From an uncultured Campylobacterales bacterium (GTDB lineage: Bacteria > Campylobacterota > Campylobacteria > Campylobacterales > Sulfurimonadaceae): 50,966 nt of DNA. The stretch is taken from the NCBI GenBank assembly GCA_903892995.1, contig CAITKP010000045.1, positions 1 through 50,966 on the forward strand, read 5' to 3'. Below, one piece after another: positions 11,858 through 19,385 of this stretch. The notes beneath the pieces are model-generated. The model ran no database searches. It was not told where the DNA came from and worked only from the letters and a program-made list of their open reading frames with translations. The stretch's first letter is position 1; each line of letters starts with the position of its first letter. The translations under genes and the position numbers were made by a program.

Positions 11858-13099
11858 ATGCAAAGAATCTTAATAGTTGAGGATAATAAAGCTCTAGCAA
11901 AGCTCATTTCACTCAAAATGCAAGCAGAACTCAATTTTGAGATAGATATCGCCTACACACTTCAAGAAGCAAAACTTTTTATCAAAAAATACACCTACTT
12001 TCTTGCCCTTCTTGATCTTAATCTTCCCGATGCTCCAAACGGCGAGATTGTTGATTATGCGCTTGAAAACAGTATTCGCCCAATTGTTTTAAGTGGAATT
12101 GTCAATAAAGCTATCAGAAAGCAATTGATGCAAAAAGATATCATCGATTATATACATAAAGATGGAATCGAATCGATTGAATATATCATCTCTACCATCA
12201 TGCGCTTATATCAAAATCAACAATATAAAGTCCTAGTTGTAGATGATTCCATGCTTTTTAGACATAAAATGCAAAAACTTATTCAAAATATGTTTTTTCA
12301 AGTTTACACTGTTGCGCATGGCGAAGAAGCCCTTGGTATGCTTCATACACATCCTGATATCAAAATCATTATTACGGATCATTTTATGCCTGTCATGGAT
12401 GGACTCGAACTCACAAAAGAGATACGAAAAACCTACTCCAAAAATGATCTTGGTATCATTGCTATCTCTTCAAACCAAGATGAAGAGATCACAGCACTCT
12501 TTTTGAAAAATGGTGCAAATGACTATCTTTATAAGCCATTTTCTAAGGAAGAGTTTACATGTAGGCTCAACAACACCATCGAAGCTTTAGAAAATATAGA
12601 AAAAATCACCAACCATGCAAATCGAGATTTTTTAACAGGAGTCTATAACCGCAGATATTTCTATGCCAATAGTGAAGAGTATTTTCAAGAAGCAAAAGAG
12701 CGTGGAGAAAATTTTGGAATCGCGATGATAGATATAGATAATTTCAAAAATATCAATGATACTTATGGGCACGATGCCGGTGATAAAGTGATCGTCACTC
12801 TTTCTCAAATACTCACAACAAGTGTTGATGCAAAAGATATCGTCGCAAGATTTGGAGGCGAAGAGTTTTGTATTGTTTTAAAAGATATGCCTCAAAATGC
12901 CATCAAAGAAAAATGTGAATTTATTCGTAAAAAAGTTACAAAAACATCCATAAAAATCCATGACACACTTCTTACATTTACCGTTTCTATAGGGGTTGCA
13001 AGCTCACCTGAAGACACTTTAGAAGAGAGTATCAACACAGCAGATATGTATTTATATAATGCAAAAAATAGCGGAAAAAACAGAGTCGTATCGAGTTAA
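11858..13099 (+). CDS. Two-receiver diguanylate cyclase response regulator (PleD-like)
   Basis: A 413-residue cytoplasmic protein with receiver 1 (Asp53 in LLDLNLPD), receiver 2 starting near residue 124 (acidic pair in VVDDS, Asp174 in TDHFMPVMDG) and a GGDEF domain with GGEEF at 333-337. The inhibitory-site position reads DAKD rather than RxxD, so product inhibition is probably lost, unlike the neighbouring cyclase. The layout is that of PleD-type proteins, activated by phosphorylation-driven dimerisation. GGAG at about 11842 supports the ATG. No cognate kinase lies next to it, except that the divergent operon also holds a kinase. Confidence 0.9.
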   Translation: MQRILIVEDNKALAKLISLKMQAELNFEIDIAYTLQEAKLFIKKYTYFLALLDLNLPDAPNGEIVDYALENSIRPIVLSGIVNKAIRKQLMQKDIIDYIHKDGIESIEYIISTIMRLYQNQQYKVLVVDDSMLFRHKMQKLIQNMFFQVYTVAHGEEALGMLHTHPDIKIIITDHFMPVMDGLELTKEIRKTYSKNDLGIIAISSNQDEEITALFLKNGANDYLYKPFSKEEFTCRLNNTIEALENIEKITNHANRDFLTGVYNRRYFYANSEEYFQEAKERGENFGIAMIDIDNFKNINDTYGHDAGDKVIVTLSQILTTSVDAKDIVARFGGEEFCIVLKDMPQNAIKEKCEFIRKKVTKTSIKIHDTLLTFTVSIGVASSPEDTLEESINTADMYLYNAKNSGKNRVVSS

Positions 13100-13100
13100 A

Positions 13101-14291
13101 TCATTCTATCACTAGCAATCTTCCAAAAGGGATTTCACTCTCTTTTGGAGCAATCCAGAGCACTTCAAAAAGTGGTTCCTCTTTTGGAAAAAATCCATCT
13201 AAATCAGTAAAATAAAGCAACAGTGTTGTGTCATAGAGATGAAGTTCTATATACTCAAAAACAGCTCTAAAATCGGTTCCGCCTCCGCCTTTGAGCTTAC
13301 ATGTAGAGCTTTCGTTGGCTGTAAGCATATCTCCCTCATAAAAAGTCTCATGCGATTGCACCTTTGCGTCTGCTACAATAATATCGATCTCATAGTTAGA
13401 AATACTCATCATAATAGCTTGCACTTCGCTCATAAACTTTCCTAAAAGCACCTCATCAACAGAGCCAGAAGAGTCAATAGCAATGCTCAGCTTAAAACGC
13501 TTACTCGTGAGCGAGGGCAGATAAGTGCCAAGATAGAGCAGTTTTTTGCTTGGTGGCAAAGTCTGATAATCATCTTTGTAAAATCTATCTATCGCGGAAC
13601 TTAGCTCATCTCTCCAATCATGCTTACATGTAAGCGCTATTTCAAAAAAACGATCCATCCCAAGAGGCAACGCTCCACGCCTTAACTCCTCTTGAATGAG
13701 CTTTTCATTTAGTTGTGCAAGAAGCTCTTCATTGACAACATTTTCAAGCTCCATTTTAGGAGCATTTTCATCTTTTTTATCATCTTGGTTTTGCTGATTT
13801 TGTCTATTGTTTTGACGTTTAGAGTTTTCATTGAAGCCCGTTTCATCGCTCTCATCGTCGCTAAACTCTTCGTTTTTTATCTCTTCTTTTAGGATTTCAT
13901 AAATCTCTTCAGCATACAAACCATCAAATCGCACCTCATAGTTTGCGCCATAAGGCATATCTAAACCATTCTCTACAAGCATTGTATTGATAGCATAATC
14001 AGTAGCTAACTGCCACAACCAGCTTAAACGCGAGTTTTTACGATTTTGATGTCCTAAAACTGCGTGCATCGCGCCATTGCTAAGGGCAAACTCAAGCTCG
14101 CCGATCTCTAGTGCGCTGAGATATTCATCATTATATTCAAGCCTCATTCCATCACTTAAAAATGAACCGATGTTCTCATTTTTCACTAACTCCAAACGGC
14201 TTGCAACTGTTCCAAAATAGGGATAATCCACTAAAAGTTTCGCCTTAGCTTGCGATATTTTTGCCTCTAAAAGAGTTACATGTAAGCTCAT
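13101..14291 (-). CDS. VWA-domain protein with metallopeptidase-like N-terminus
   Basis: A 396-residue protein whose ATG overlaps the stop of the MoxR gene (ATGA). The N-terminal half resembles the putative metallopeptidase region seen with such VWA proteins, but the zinc motif is degenerate: HAVLGH (76-81) without the Glu of HExxH. A highly charged linker lies at about 140-175. The C-terminal VWA domain has the MIDAS residues DSSGS (273-277), GGGTDF near 336-341 and FTDLDG. A MoxR/VWA pair normally acts as a chaperone-like remodelling machine. Exact palindromes write LHV at residues 3-5 and LTCK in EIALTCKHDW. Confidence 0.85.
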   Translation of the reverse strand: MSLHVTLLEAKISQAKAKLLVDYPYFGTVASRLELVKNENIGSFLSDGMRLEYNDEYLSALEIGELEFALSNGAMHAVLGHQNRKNSRLSWLWQLATDYAINTMLVENGLDMPYGANYEVRFDGLYAEEIYEILKEEIKNEEFSDDESDETGFNENSKRQNNRQNQQNQDDKKDENAPKMELENVVNEELLAQLNEKLIQEELRRGALPLGMDRFFEIALTCKHDWRDELSSAIDRFYKDDYQTLPPSKKLLYLGTYLPSLTSKRFKLSIAIDSSGSVDEVLLGKFMSEVQAIMMSISNYEIDIIVADAKVQSHETFYEGDMLTANESSTCKLKGGGGTDFRAVFEYIELHLYDTTLLLYFTDLDGFFPKEEPLFEVLWIAPKESEIPFGRLLVIE

Positions 14292-15286
14292 GAGAGAAGA
14301 TAACTAAACTTTCTAACCCATGTTTTAAACACTTCGCTATGCTCCATTCGAACGCCATTTCGCTGTAACTCCTGCACGATCATCACGGCAAATTCACTTT
14401 GAAGTGAAAGAGTATAGTTTAAAAGATTTTCCAAATAGCTCTCATTTTGAAGTGTCTTGCTCACAAGCCCAGCACTAAGTGCATACAAAACATCCACATC
14501 ACTTGGATACTCGCCCTCTCCGCTTTCTAAGATGCTTTGAATATCAGGAAGCCTTGTCGCCACTTTGCAAAAACCCAGAAAATCTACGGCAATATCATGC
14601 CCGATAGCTCCGCCAATGGCGCTAATTAAAAGGGAAGTGTTCATCGAAGATTTAAGGATTTTATCTACATATTCCCAGCTTCTAGGTGTTGCAAAACTCT
14701 TCTCATTTTTTGTCGCATCAAAGCTAAAGAGGTTCTCATTTTTATAAGATATATACGCAATAATGCGCTCATCTATGCCACTTTTATAAGCCCATGATTT
14801 ATAATCATCCACATCAACACCCATCTCTAAATGCACAAAACGGTTTGCCAGCGGTGAGGGCATACGGTACACAACTCCTCGATCGCTCTCTCTGTTTCCA
14901 GCTGCTACTATTGCATAGCCATCTGGAAGTACATATTCACCCACTCGTCTATCTAAAATAAGCTGATACGCGGAAGCCTGCACCGCAGGAGGCGCGGAGT
15001 TAAGCTCATCTAAAAACAAGATCCCCTCGCCATCGCGCGGTAAAAATGAGGGAGAAGCCCAGATGGCTGAGTGTTCATGTTTATCGTAAAAAGGGATCCC
15101 TTTGAGATCGGTTGGATCCATCAAAGAGAGACGTAAATCGATAAATTCTATCTTTTTTTCTTGCGCTATCTGTTTGATAATAGAGGATTTTCCAATCCCT
15201 GGAGCGCCCCAAAGAAAAGTAGGAATATGTTGCTCTATCATCGCTTCTATCGTCGTGCGTATCTCACTTGCTCTCATATTTTCCAT
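14288..15286 (-). CDS. MoxR-family AAA+ ATPase
   Basis: A 332-residue AAA+ protein with Walker A GAPGIGKSS (27-35), Walker B ILFLDELNS (89-97), sensor segment VAAGNRESD, and the arginine-finger region MPSPLANRFVHLE. The second ATG at 15277 is a good alternative start because it overlaps the upstream stop as ATGA and has AGGA eight bases away. MoxR ATPases work with VWA-domain partners, here the next gene, to insert cofactors or remodel complexes. The substrate is unknown; the upstream repeat protein and exonuclease in the same operon are the obvious candidates. Confidence 0.9.
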   Translation of the reverse strand: MENMRASEIRTTIEAMIEQHIPTFLWGAPGIGKSSIIKQIAQEKKIEFIDLRLSLMDPTDLKGIPFYDKHEHSAIWASPSFLPRDGEGILFLDELNSAPPAVQASAYQLILDRRVGEYVLPDGYAIVAAGNRESDRGVVYRMPSPLANRFVHLEMGVDVDDYKSWAYKSGIDERIIAYISYKNENLFSFDATKNEKSFATPRSWEYVDKILKSSMNTSLLISAIGGAIGHDIAVDFLGFCKVATRLPDIQSILESGEGEYPSDVDVLYALSAGLVSKTLQNESYLENLLNYTLSLQSEFAVMIVQELQRNGVRMEHSEVFKTWVRKFSYLLS

Positions 15287-16617
15287 CCTAAATTTTGTGT
15301 TTTTATATACTCGCCAAAGCTCTCATTTTCACTCACTAAGCGATCGAGTCTTTGATCGAGTCTCAACTCATAAAGGAGTGCTATGGGAGTTTTTGTATTT
15401 GTGCATAATGCTTGTAAAACCGCAAACTCTTTTGAACTTCCCAATTTCTCCAAAACATCTACAGGTGTGTTCTCATTTTGCGCCAATGAGAGATGATATT
15501 TTTGCTCACTGTAGGCTTGATAAAGGTACTCCTCTTTGAGCACTGGATTTGCAAAAAGCAGAGTATTTACCGCATCATCGCTTAGTTGCAACAGCCTCTT
15601 TGCCACAGTTTCACAAAGCTTAGCGTTACATGTAAGCCCTTTTGCAACATCTATGTTTGTAAGTTCTAAAAGTTTCTCTTGCATCTTACATGTAAGCGTT
15701 GTATTGAGTGCCAAAGCCAAAGGGGACTTTTGCAAAAACATCTCAAATAGGCTCTCGTCTAAACGCAGATATTGCGCCAAAAGGTCGGGATATTTTTCTT
15801 GAAGTTTTTCTATTAAAGAGGGGTCGATATTTTCATTTTTGCAAAGCGCCTCGCTAAGTGTTTCATCATTTTGTAAAAAGATCAGTTGTTGAAGATTTGC
15901 ACTCAAATTTTTTCTCGAAGCGATAAGATACTTCATCTCTAAAGTACCATTTTTTAAAAACATCTTGAGCACTGAATCTGGCGTGGCTACATTTCTTGCG
16001 ATTGCAAGCAGGACTGCATAGAGGCTTTGATTTGAAAAACCCTTTTTTAGTGGCTGCAAGGAAGCGATAACCTCGATAAGATCGCTGTTTTTTGTCTGCT
16101 CTACCAAGTGCATCAGTCCTAAAGTCGCATACTGAACATTGTGATTTTGTTCTATATTTTCATAAAATCTCGATATAAGTGCGGCGGTAATATCACGGTT
16201 TTCATCATTATCAAAAAACCCCTCATCCTGCCAATCATAGAGTTTGAGAAGTTTTAAAAAAAGTGTGTCGTTGATTTGTGAATTTTTCAAATAGCTCGCT
16301 AAACGATCTTTGTCATGTGAGAGTTTGAGACTCATAAGCAGAGTATCTTCATCAATATTTTCAATCAGCAGAGTTTCAAATGCGTCAATAGAGATAAACT
16401 TCTTTTGATGACCTAGTTCATACAAGCTATCCAACTCATTTTGCTCATAAGGAGTGAGTAATCTTCCCTCGACAATGAGAGAAACAGAATCCTCATAGCT
16501 TTTTACAAGGCTAATGCCAGAGTCTTGAAGCTGGTAGGTAAACTCTTGGGCATCAAAAGCTCTTGGCTTCCCAAAAAGAAGGATATTTTGATCTTTCAAA
16601 CTCTCAATACTACGCAT
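15274..16617 (-). CDS. BRCT-like domain plus leucine-rich-variant-type repeat protein
   Basis: A 447-residue protein not matching a named family. Residues about 1-90 look like a BRCT domain (LKDQNILLFGKPRAFDAQEF, then SLIVEGRL and KKFISIDAFETLL). The remainder is all-helical with units such as NENTPVDVLEKLGSSKEFAVLQALCTN and NTKTPIALLYELR, the N-x-x-TP-x-x-(V/A)L pattern of leucine-rich-variant solenoids. It could be a scaffold linking the exonuclease to the AAA+/VWA machine; this is inference. It begins one base after the exonuclease stop and overlaps the ATPase gene. Two palindromes encode LTCN and LTCK in it. Confidence 0.65.
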   Translation of the reverse strand: MRSIESLKDQNILLFGKPRAFDAQEFTYQLQDSGISLVKSYEDSVSLIVEGRLLTPYEQNELDSLYELGHQKKFISIDAFETLLIENIDEDTLLMSLKLSHDKDRLASYLKNSQINDTLFLKLLKLYDWQDEGFFDNDENRDITAALISRFYENIEQNHNVQYATLGLMHLVEQTKNSDLIEVIASLQPLKKGFSNQSLYAVLLAIARNVATPDSVLKMFLKNGTLEMKYLIASRKNLSANLQQLIFLQNDETLSEALCKNENIDPSLIEKLQEKYPDLLAQYLRLDESLFEMFLQKSPLALALNTTLTCKMQEKLLELTNIDVAKGLTCNAKLCETVAKRLLQLSDDAVNTLLFANPVLKEEYLYQAYSEQKYHLSLAQNENTPVDVLEKLGSSKEFAVLQALCTNTKTPIALLYELRLDQRLDRLVSENESFGEYIKTQNLGWKI

Positions 16618-17358
16618 CTATGGTGCCAAAACTTTTTCTATCGAATATTTTAAATCCGCATCAAGTGTGTCCATAGATTTAAGCATCCAGCGCAGATAAG
16701 AGGCATCCTCATGCGCTACATCAACAAGATCTTTTCCCTTATATTTTCCAAATCGAAAAGTTTTTATAAAGATCGGCTCTTTGGTGAGTTGTACCATCTT
16801 TTCAACTGGATTTTCTCCCACAAATCTCTCTAAAACCGCTTTTTTCAGTTCACTTAAAAAGAGTTTGAGCGTCAAAACATCCCCAATCGCATCATGGGCT
16901 TTGACTTCGATACCTAGTTTTTTTGCTTCTACCTCTTCCTCTTTATAGAGTCCGAGTTTGTATCGAAAATATTGTAAGCGGTGCGCCTCTTCATCAGCAA
17001 AAATATGTTTAGCACAGCGGAGAGTGTCGATAAGCTTCATATTGAGTGAAAAGCCCTCTTTTTCAAGCATCCCGATATCAAAAGGCGCATTATGGATAAT
17101 CATATAATTTTCACGAGTATTGAGCTCAAGAAGTGTTTTATAGGCTTGTGTTTGCGTACATGGCAGCTTATTTTCTATCATATCAGGCGTGATATGATGA
17201 ACCTCCATCGCTCCAAAAGAGATGGGAACTTCTGATGAGCAAAACTCATTGTAAACCTCTGGTTCTTTGCCTCCAAGAACCATATATCCAAGCTGAATGA
17301 TGCGATCATTTTCGCCTGCGCCCGTTGTTTCTGTGTCTAAAATAATATATTTTGCCAT
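16618..17358 (-). CDS. DEDDh 3'-5' exonuclease, ExoX-like
   Basis: A 246-residue protein. Exo I motif LDTETTG (Asp8, Glu10), Exo II IHNAPFDIG, and Exo III with HDAIGD give the full DEDDh catalytic set. The C-terminal part FGKYKGKDLVDVAHEDASYLRWML matches the small domain at the end of E. coli exodeoxyribonuclease X (220 residues). It should degrade DNA 3' to 5', in repair or another DNA-processing pathway. It is the first gene of a four-gene operon with a BRCT-like repeat protein, a MoxR ATPase and a VWA protein. GTGAGG precedes the ATG. Confidence 0.85.
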   Translation of the reverse strand: MAKYIILDTETTGAGENDRIIQLGYMVLGGKEPEVYNEFCSSEVPISFGAMEVHHITPDMIENKLPCTQTQAYKTLLELNTRENYMIIHNAPFDIGMLEKEGFSLNMKLIDTLRCAKHIFADEEAHRLQYFRYKLGLYKEEEVEAKKLGIEVKAHDAIGDVLTLKLFLSELKKAVLERFVGENPVEKMVQLTKEPIFIKTFRFGKYKGKDLVDVAHEDASYLRWMLKSMDTLDADLKYSIEKVLAP

Positions 17359-17436: not shown

Positions 17437-18699
17437 TTACGCCAATCCAAGCAGTGCGATTAAAAGTACGGGAGGCGTGATAATGAGCCCTACTTTCATA
17501 TACTCGCCCCAAGTGATTTTCACGCCCTTTTGTGCGAGTACATGTAACCATAAAAGTGTCGCAAGCGAGCCAATAGGTGTCATTTTAGGGCCTAGATTTG
17601 CACCTAAAATATTGGCATACACTAAAGCTTCATTTCCAAGATATCCCACATGATCGATAGAGATATCCATTAGCATTATCGTTGGCATATTGTTCATCAC
17701 AGAACTTATAATCGCAGATAAAAATCCTGTTCCAATGATCCCAACCAGCTCGCCCTGCTCTTGAAAAAAACCTATCCATGAAGCGATCACATCAGTTAGT
17801 CCTGCATTTTTAAGACCATACACAACAACATAAAGTCCTATGGAAAACCAAACGATCTGCCAAGGTGCAGCTTTGATGGTCATCATAGGTTTGGTCGCCT
17901 TAAAATAAGTAGCAATAAGCAAAAAGAGTATCGCACCGCCAAGCGCAAAAAGCGAGATAGGAAGATGATACCGCTCACCCATAAAATAAGCAAACATCAA
18001 AACGCTCAAGAAAAACCAAGAGAGTATAAACATAGGTTTGCTTTTAATCACTGACTCAGGCGATGCAAGCGATGAAATATCGATAGTGCGAGGAATATCT
18101 TTCCTAAAATAGAGCCACAAAACTCCAATGGATGCAACGATGCTCAGAAGATTTGGCAAAAACATATGAGTAGCATATTCGCTAAAGCCTATATGAAAAT
18201 ATCCCGCTGTGACGATGTTTGTAAGATTTGAGATCACTAAAGGATTTGACGCGCTATCGCCGATAAACCCGCCCGCCATTAAAAATGCAAAGACGCTTAG
18301 TGGCTTTAGTTTGAGATGTTTTATCTTTGCAAGAACAATTGGAGTCAAGATAAGAGCCGCTCCATCATTTGCAAAAAGTGCCGAAACAACTGCGCCTAAA
18401 AGAAGGATATATACAAACATCAACTGCCCATTTCCACGACTCAAACGCGCCATTTTAAGCGCAGCGTATTCAAAAAAACCGATCTCATCGAGTATCATAG
18501 AGAGAATAATAATCCCAATAAACGCCAAAGTCGCATCCCAAACGATAGCGCTTACGTCTAAAATATCGCCAAAGCTCACAACCCCAAAAAGTAAACTAAC
18601 AACTGCCCCGATAACCGCACTTGTACCAATTTTTAGTCCCTTTGGCTGCGAGATAATAAAAAGCAGTGTAAGAAAAAATATCGAGCTTGCTAACAACAT
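17437..18699 (-). CDS. arsB: ArsB-type arsenite efflux permease
   Basis: A 420-residue protein made almost entirely of membrane helices, with the ArsB/NhaD-type signatures SALFANDGAALILTPIV near residues 106-122 and a second inverted copy SAIISSVMNNMPTIMLM near 310-326. It should export arsenite or antimonite. The context supports this: a divergent ArsR with a Cys-x-Cys metal site, and a small Cys-rich protein whose gene overlaps its start by 10 bp. A near copy of the palindrome gives LWLHV. A general dicarboxylate or sodium transporter is the alternative, but less likely here. Confidence 0.88.
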   Translation of the reverse strand: MLLASSIFFLTLLFIISQPKGLKIGTSAVIGAVVSLLFGVVSFGDILDVSAIVWDATLAFIGIIILSMILDEIGFFEYAALKMARLSRGNGQLMFVYILLLGAVVSALFANDGAALILTPIVLAKIKHLKLKPLSVFAFLMAGGFIGDSASNPLVISNLTNIVTAGYFHIGFSEYATHMFLPNLLSIVASIGVLWLYFRKDIPRTIDISSLASPESVIKSKPMFILSWFFLSVLMFAYFMGERYHLPISLFALGGAILFLLIATYFKATKPMMTIKAAPWQIVWFSIGLYVVVYGLKNAGLTDVIASWIGFFQEQGELVGIIGTGFLSAIISSVMNNMPTIMLMDISIDHVGYLGNEALVYANILGANLGPKMTPIGSLATLLWLHVLAQKGVKITWGEYMKVGLIITPPVLLIALLGLA

Positions 18700-18956
18700 T
18701 GTGTATTTAGTACAAGCGATTTTGACAGAGCCTCTTCGATCTCCTCTTTTTTTATCTCTCCATTTATATCAAGAGCCACATCTCCATCTTCTCCACTTAT
18801 CTGTATATCTTTGATTTTTTGTTTTGTTGCTTCACTCATACAGCTACAGCCACCGCTTTGGCAGTTTTGCACCATTGCGACAATACTCTCTTTTTTCACT
18901 TCACCAACAAAAGATATCTTTACCCCGCTTTGCGTTGCATCTACTTTTCTTTGCAT
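18690..18956 (-). CDS. Small cysteine-rich protein of the arsenic operon
   Basis: An 88-residue soluble protein overlapping arsB by 10 bp. Cysteines occur in a CQSGGCSCM cluster (about 32-40) and as a terminal CC pair, suggesting thiol binding of As(III) or another soft metal. The rest is acidic and repetitive in feel (VKKESI, IKKEEIEEA; ISFVGEV, DVALDINGEI), perhaps two copies of a beta-alpha unit. No known family is recognised. GAAGGA precedes its ATG. It is the first gene of the operon facing away from arsR, so it should be arsenic-induced. A metallochaperone role is inference. Confidence 0.7.
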   Translation of the reverse strand: MQRKVDATQSGVKISFVGEVKKESIVAMVQNCQSGGCSCMSEATKQKIKDIQISGEDGDVALDINGEIKKEEIEEALSKSLVLNTQCC

Positions 18957-19015
18957 TTTTTTTATCCTTCACTTTACATGTAAGCGTACTATAACATAGT
19001 TTCAATCAATAAATC

Positions 19016-19049
19016 AATATATCTTGATATATTAAAAATATGTTATAAT
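19016..19049 (+). promoter_or_regulatory. arsR operator overlapping the promoter; leaderless start
   Basis: AATATAT (19016-19022) and ATATATT (19027-19033) form a perfect palindrome with a CTTG spacer, a plausible ArsR operator. TATAAT lies at 19044-19049 with a weak -35 (TCTTGA, 19022-19027) inside the operator. The arsR ATG is at 19056, only 6 bp after the -10 box, so the transcript should be leaderless; no Shine-Dalgarno is present. In the other direction TTGATT and TATAGT, 18 bp apart, can serve the arsB operon, so one operator could control both. Confidence 0.6.
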
Positions 19050-19055
19050 CTTCGC

Positions 19056-19385
19056 ATGGAAATATTTTTACAAACAGTATCAGCACTTAATGATGAAACA
19101 CGCGTCAAGCTTCTGCGTTTTATCGATGAAAATGGTTCGATGTGCGTGTGCGACCTCCAAGAGTCCTTTGGCATGATCCAATCTCGTCTTTCACGCCATC
19201 TTAAAATCTTAAAAGATGCAGGATTTTTGAGAGTCGAGCGGCAAGGAACATGGGCGTATTACTCTATTAGAACACCTTTAGATAGGTTTCGAATACAAGC
19301 ACTTCAAGAGATAAAAACACTCGATATCGCACTTCCGATATTTCAAAAATGCGCAGCACAAAACACAGGATGCCCCACCCAATGA
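19056..19385 (+). CDS. arsR: ArsR-family arsenical resistance repressor
   Basis: A 109-residue winged-helix repressor. The metal site is CVCDL at the start of the recognition helix region (SMCVCDLQESFGMIQSRLSRHLKILKDAGFL), as in E. coli-type ArsR, where Cys-x-Cys binds As(III) and releases DNA. It has further cysteines near the C-terminus (KCAAQNTGCPTQ). It is divergent from the arsB operon. Its TGA overlaps the ATG of the next gene (ATGA), so a YihY-type membrane protein is co-expressed with it. Confidence 0.93.
   Translation: MEIFLQTVSALNDETRVKLLRFIDENGSMCVCDLQESFGMIQSRLSRHLKILKDAGFLRVERQGTWAYYSIRTPLDRFRIQALQEIKTLDIALPIFQKCAAQNTGCPTQ

Follow-up and report, generated by a model that had tools for sequence, protein, structure and literature searches.

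A three-gene MoxR-VWA unit with a predicted BRCT-LRV component in Campylobacterota

The described systems closest to the present locus are pairs of a MoxR ATPase and a VWA protein. In NorQD, the adaptor NorD has its VWA domain at the C-terminal side, joined by a linker to an N-terminal domain (PMC9976466, PMC13036017), and it docks on NorQ with a pore finger and with its extreme C-terminus (PMC13036017). Published precedents for such pairs also include CoxD/CoxE (PMC4240915) and RavA-ViaA (PMC10585395), while ternary MoxR-vWA conflict systems with differing third components are known as well (PMC7159879). The locus that we compare with them lies in a window of 50,966 nt, by which we mean the whole stretch of DNA analysed, where four minus-strand ORFs fill the span 13101-17358 (Table 1). 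The gene row and its tight junctions, on which the original prediction of a single four-gene unit was built, were confirmed from the ORF coordinates: the exonuclease and 447-aa genes abut with 0 bp between them, the 447-aa and MoxR genes overlap by 13 bp, and the MoxR and VWA genes overlap by 4 bp (ATGA).

Table 1. Features of the gene row in the window
Feature	Position	Strand	Basis or remark
DEDDh exonuclease, ExoX/DnaQ type, 246 aa	16618..17358	-	RNase_T and ExoX-like_C (Pfam); flanks the unit but is not conserved with it
BRCT-LRV protein, 447 aa, new third component	15274..16617	-	AlphaFold pLDDT 92; orthologues limited to Campylobacterota in the genomes searched
BRCT domain (predicted), residues 1-88, beta-alpha-beta-beta-alpha-beta-alpha	16354..16617	-	Predicted fold and structural matches
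Helical middle region, residues 89-195	16033..16353	-	Best-conserved stretch is 89-130
LRV-type alpha solenoid (predicted), residues 196-447	15277..16032	-	1lrv match; Pfam LRV_2/LRV in orthologues
MoxR-type AAA+ ATPase, 332 aa	14288..15286	-	PF07726; Walker A GAPGIGKSS, Walker B ILFLDE
DUF2201 protein, 396 aa: DUF2201_N, acidic linker, C-terminal VWA	13101..14291	-	PF13203 and PF09967
Degenerate zinc motif NGAMH (HExxH position)	14064..14078	-	Comparison with other DUF2201 members

Among 200 genomes of the order Campylobacterales, 48 have a clear relative of the 447-aa protein (E no higher than 2e-10), 56 a close relative of the MoxR ATPase and 54 a relative of the VWA protein. In 41 of the 48 genomes, the 447-aa gene has MoxR beside it in the same orientation (within 500 bp in 32 and within 3 kb in 9, the larger gaps being partly caused by shortened alignments), a pairing conserved far beyond chance, and the VWA gene lies on the same strand at a distance of up to 3 kb in 33 of them. 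In some genomes (G106, G141) the VWA gene is far off, and the three genes therefore need not share one operon. The original prediction was to be abandoned if the gene order proved not to be conserved in relatives; because the order 447-aa protein, MoxR, VWA is kept across Campylobacterota, the proposed linkage withstands this check for three of the four genes, and fails it for the exonuclease, which adjoins the 447-aa gene in only 4 of the 48 genomes. The conserved unit is thus made up of the 447-aa, MoxR and DUF2201 VWA genes, with the ExoX-like gene mostly a bystander. The genes flanking the unit differ between families (fusA/rpsL/rpsG with an ankyrin gene, an NhaA-like antiporter with an epimerase, pqi-like and argF-like genes, all named by eye), which again delimits the unit to the three genes, and its chromosomal position is stable within families. 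It is found mainly in chemolithotrophic genera.

The exonuclease itself is present in 110 of the 200 genomes, usually away from the unit, and about 74 of these 110 have no 447-aa protein. In 4 of the 48 genomes it sits directly beside the 447-aa gene, in 1 more at up to 3 kb from it and in 6 at up to 15 kb, while in the rest it is elsewhere or without a match; the genomes that have it next to the unit are those of the window's genus, Sulfuricurvum-like ones and a few more from that family. Such distribution and position across the 200 genomes rule out its candidacy as a fourth component. Although it scores 92.5 bits against the ExoX equivalog NF005937 (NCBIfam), below the threshold of 202 bits, it is by its domain matches a DEDDh exonuclease with an ExoX-like C-terminus all the same. 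Upstream of it, the window contains the gene of an ArsB arsenite pump together with a small gene, and after these a divergent ArsR-like regulator (17437-19385); the same block precedes the exonuclease in L035 and L036. At the other end of the row, a GGDEF-domain response regulator (11858-13099) is convergent with the VWA gene and occupies the same place in L035, L036, L037, L039, L041 and L043.

The palindrome TTACATGTAA, for which the operon had been called the densest in the window, is indeed present in the gene span in four exact copies (at 13624, 14276, 15626 and 15686), out of 18 in the window (these four, 4163, 8284, 18974 and 11 more). The span is expected to hold 1.32 copies at the genome rate (P(>=4) = 0.045), and of the 935 overlapping segments of this length along the 51-kb stretch, 92 hold four copies, so that the density is near chance and the label adds little. 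In the genome as a whole there are 756 copies, as compared with 1 of the reversed control; other members of the genus have 48-485, three other genera of the family 354-1061, and genomes elsewhere 0-6. It is, in other words, a lineage-restricted and highly iterated palindrome, its inner eight bases having almost no one-mismatch variants, and its extended form is CTTACATGTAAG. An apparent orientation bias (18 of 18 copies in the window followed by G) vanishes on 466 kb, with 110 left C versus 120 right G. Its iteration is reminiscent of cyanobacterial HIP1; in the literature searched, no paper with the TTACATGTAA sequence was found.

To look beyond the phylum, a MoxR profile was run against the contigs of 84,980 species, and the best 80 loci were taken, of which 68 are from Campylobacterota and 12 from other phyla. 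In 52 of the 68, which include loci of Sulfurimonas, Sulfuricurvum, Sulfurovum and Arcobacter, a BRCT-LRV gene lies immediately upstream of MoxR, and most of the remaining 16 belong to a nif-type paralogous group or are without upstream sequence. All 12 outside loci among these 80 have MoxR and a DUF2201 protein with no BRCT-LRV gene within the flank covered; the scan, being keyed on MoxR, covers BRCT-LRV genes near MoxR outside the phylum and could miss those away from it. Since the outside loci have the pair without its companion, the MoxR-DUF2201 pair is widespread, and the third component is, as far as searched, known here from Campylobacterota only. Pairwise distances of the three co-inherited proteins are correlated (r 0.87-0.91), an effect that shared vertical descent would also give, and the third component evolves fastest (mean distance 0.66, as opposed to 0.40 for MoxR). 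The literature searched yielded nothing relevant on DUF2201, nor on BRCT combined with LRV or MoxR, and as far as it shows, the BRCT-LRV-containing MoxR-VWA variant is real, conserved and undescribed.

For the window's 447-aa protein, no Pfam family scores above cut-off. The protein had been described from the sequence as a BRCT-like N-terminus joined to LRV-type repeats, and structure prediction was proposed as a check. The AlphaFold model, built with 28 orthologues, bears out both parts: it has a BRCT fold at its N-terminus, and residues 1-88 folded alone reach a pLDDT of 90.5. When this predicted domain was used as a query, all 50 of the 50 re-aligned structures among the matches listed were BRCT domains, with the LigA BRCT (9a6z_B) at the top (Z 9.5, rmsd 2.0 Å over 77 residues) and RFC1 next; Foldseek matched it to the RFC1 BRCT at E 3.6e-4. 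An hhalign comparison of the N-terminal profile with the LigA BRCTs of relatives, weak if taken alone, gave E 1.4e-4 and a probability of 52%. The Pfam BRCT model PF00533 picks up LigA-sized proteins in relatives and misses the 447-aa protein, reaching 1 of 28 orthologues at E 0.056, and a profile search of solved structures with the 447-aa family yielded nothing significant. The predicted model thus identifies the N-terminal domain as a BRCT fold.

The BRCT domain of Rfc1 holds a 5' phosphate through Thr166, Gly167, Arg174 and Lys209 (PMC9359705). As judged by sequence alignment rather than superposition, Gly alone is kept of this pocket in the BRCT-LRV orthologues, the Thr position being occupied by F, L or V, and the Arg and Lys positions not being conserved. 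The domain accordingly lies outside the phosphate-binding class of RFC1 and LigA, and because the pocket is reduced to Gly, protein docking appears likelier than DNA-end binding. The same observation bears on a DNA-directed machine, in which the BRCT domain would bring the MoxR-VWA pair to DNA ends or the replisome to remodel DNA-bound proteins, possibly together with the ExoX-like nuclease. The closest BRCT structures among the matches listed, LigA and RFC1, both act on DNA, and the exonuclease abuts the unit in the window's genus and is close by in Sulfuricurvum; it is, however, mostly elsewhere in other genomes, and with the phosphate pocket so reduced we regard such a machine as quite unlikely. 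That BRCT-LRV founds a family of bacterial BRCT proteins steering MoxR-VWA to a nucleic-acid or replisome target, which would make this the first MoxR-VWA system in DNA metabolism, seems very unlikely. The DNA-damage role entertained originally finds no support in a BRCT domain devoid of the T, R and K phosphate-binding residues or in positions stable within families.

The C-terminal rest of the 447-aa model is an alpha solenoid that matches 1lrv, an LRV protein of Azotobacter, with Z 9.1 and an rmsd of 9.6 across 200 residues. Of the 28 orthologues, 22 have a Pfam match to LRV_2 and 11 one to LRV, while the window's own protein has an LRV score below cut-off; together, the LRV_2 matches in orthologues and the structural match place the repeats in the LRV class. 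Mean majority identity is 0.62 at residues 89-130, 0.46 in the BRCT domain and 0.37-0.39 in most repeats, making residues 89-130 a candidate docking surface. An 827-aa LRV-MoxR "fusion" in locus L028, considered as a sign of interaction, proved to be an assembly gap of Ns.

The identification of the two remaining genes as a MoxR ATPase with its VWA partner stands. The ATPase matches AAA_3 at 32.6 bits (cut-off 27), and its P-loop and Walker B motif, invariant in 12 orthologues, are those of a MoxR AAA+ ATPase. Its partner matches PF13203 at 96 bits and PF09967 at 78 bits, and the MIDAS of its VWA domain (DSSGS, T, D; the DxSxS form), encoded beside MoxR, is conserved in 23 of 23 proteins compared. 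In most DUF2201_N members compared outside Campylobacterota, HExxH is intact, whereas the HE pair is gone in all Campylobacterota members compared, which typically have N(G/A/C)xMH; the window protein, despite its Pfam domain match, thus does not carry the metallopeptidase motif, and its N-terminal domain is best described as a putative pseudo-zincin.

According to Pfam, the VWA domain runs to the last residue, 396, with no C-terminal effector domain following it. This bears on another possibility, namely that the unit belongs with the ternary MoxR-vWA systems of phage defence or biological conflict. Such systems are already known (PMC7159879), and the fast evolution of the third component would fit them, yet their hallmarks, an effector C-terminal to vWA and a VMAP, iSTAND, FtsH or beta-propeller third component, are both absent here, and the main text of that paper mentions neither BRCT nor LRV. 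The unit also has stable positions within families and a vertical pattern, there was no match to it in 72,556 plasmid records or 50,697 phage records, and PADLOC returned generic nuclease and ATPase matches only and no specific defence system. We consider a conflict system highly improbable, and the anti-invader role first proposed is unsupported on the same grounds.

The window's genome has a second MoxR-DUF2201 pair, without BRCT-LRV, beside nifE, nifN and nifX (G000:C80:44530-46613; L115 6522-8632), and paralogous pairs of relatives are likewise found in nif clusters, some by NifQ, and again all without BRCT-LRV (L119, L120, L122, L127, L131). The nif-linked pair is possibly a nitrogenase-maturation machine. 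In the MoxR tree, the BRCT-LRV-linked proteins do not form one clade, and the nif-type group B is nested within them with strong support; under a midpoint root, this nesting suggests that the three-part state came first and that the BRCT-LRV partner was lost in group B. Ankyrin-repeat genes recur both by the BRCT-LRV unit and by nif-linked pairs (L045 8887-9381, L047 7883-8383, L115 9026-9268, L120 14746-15177; two of these were identified by eye).

We propose, with a probability of roughly 55%, that the unit encodes a three-part MoxR-VWA machine for client remodelling, NorQD-like and equipped with a BRCT-LRV scaffold, which would most likely serve cofactor insertion or reactivation. The MoxR hexamer would be the source of ATP-driven motion, and the DUF2201 protein, with its N-terminal pseudo-zincin, flexible acidic linker and C-terminal VWA domain, would be the adaptor, its MIDAS gripping an acidic patch on the client as in the model proposed for NorD with NorQ. 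BRCT-LRV would be a dedicated scaffold, in which the solenoid groove takes hold of the client, or of an accessory factor, or brings it into position, and the BRCT domain would act as a protein-docking module, not as a DNA reader. The machine would remodel a specific protein complex, with cofactor insertion or reactivation favoured because the sister MoxR-DUF2201 pairs sit in nitrogenase gene clusters. Conservation of the genes, their co-inheritance, the predicted folds, the state of the motifs and the nif linkage of paralogues are what the analysis shows, and from these we infer a physical complex, client capture and metal maturation; metalloenzyme maturation is our leading guess in view of NorQD, CoxDE and the nif linkage of the paralogues, while no client gene was found linked to the BRCT-LRV-containing unit itself, nif linkage being a property of paralogues without BRCT-LRV only. 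The client is not cNOR, as NorB is absent from the window's genome: the single COX1 is CcoN by its size and by the CcoO-like gene beside it. The unit might instead be a RavA-ViaA-like stress-chaperone module of broad clientele, with BRCT-LRV anchoring the machine on a membrane or on a respiratory complex and selecting no single client. Fumarate reductase and complex I are reported partners of RavA-ViaA (PMC10585395, PMC3893208), and the prevalence of the unit in chemolithotrophs would be in keeping with this, but respiratory genes are not consistently found beside it, and we view such a module as unlikely.

Comparison with known proteins and systems places the unit as follows. The 447-aa protein shares LRV alpha-solenoid repeats with Azotobacter 1lrv, and differs from it by the BRCT domain in front and by its MoxR operon; with the LigA and RFC1 BRCT domains it shares the predicted fold and strand order, but it lacks the phosphate-binding T, R and K, is fused to repeats, and is missed by the Pfam BRCT model. 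As in the ternary conflict systems, MoxR, vWA and a third protein are encoded together, although this third protein is unlike all four of their classes and the VWA protein has no effector. CoxD/CoxE, CbbQ/CbbO and RavA/ViaA are MoxR-VWA pairs that mature or remodel a particular enzyme, as proposed for the unit; as described in the literature, they are set apart by a different VWA-protein architecture and by having no BRCT-LRV partner. NorQ/NorD, which inserts iron into cNOR, is similar in combining MoxR with an adaptor of N-terminal domain, disordered linker and C-terminal VWA with MIDAS, whereas in the unit the N-terminal adaptor domain is DUF2201_N, BRCT-LRV is added, and the genome has no NorB. 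Since nif-linked paralogues are present in the same genomes, the two kinds of locus lend themselves to comparing how such machines select their clients, and to the MoxR-VWA theme the unit adds a third component, with a BRCT domain overlooked by the Pfam model and tied to the machine throughout a large group of Campylobacterota that oxidise sulfur and hydrogen.
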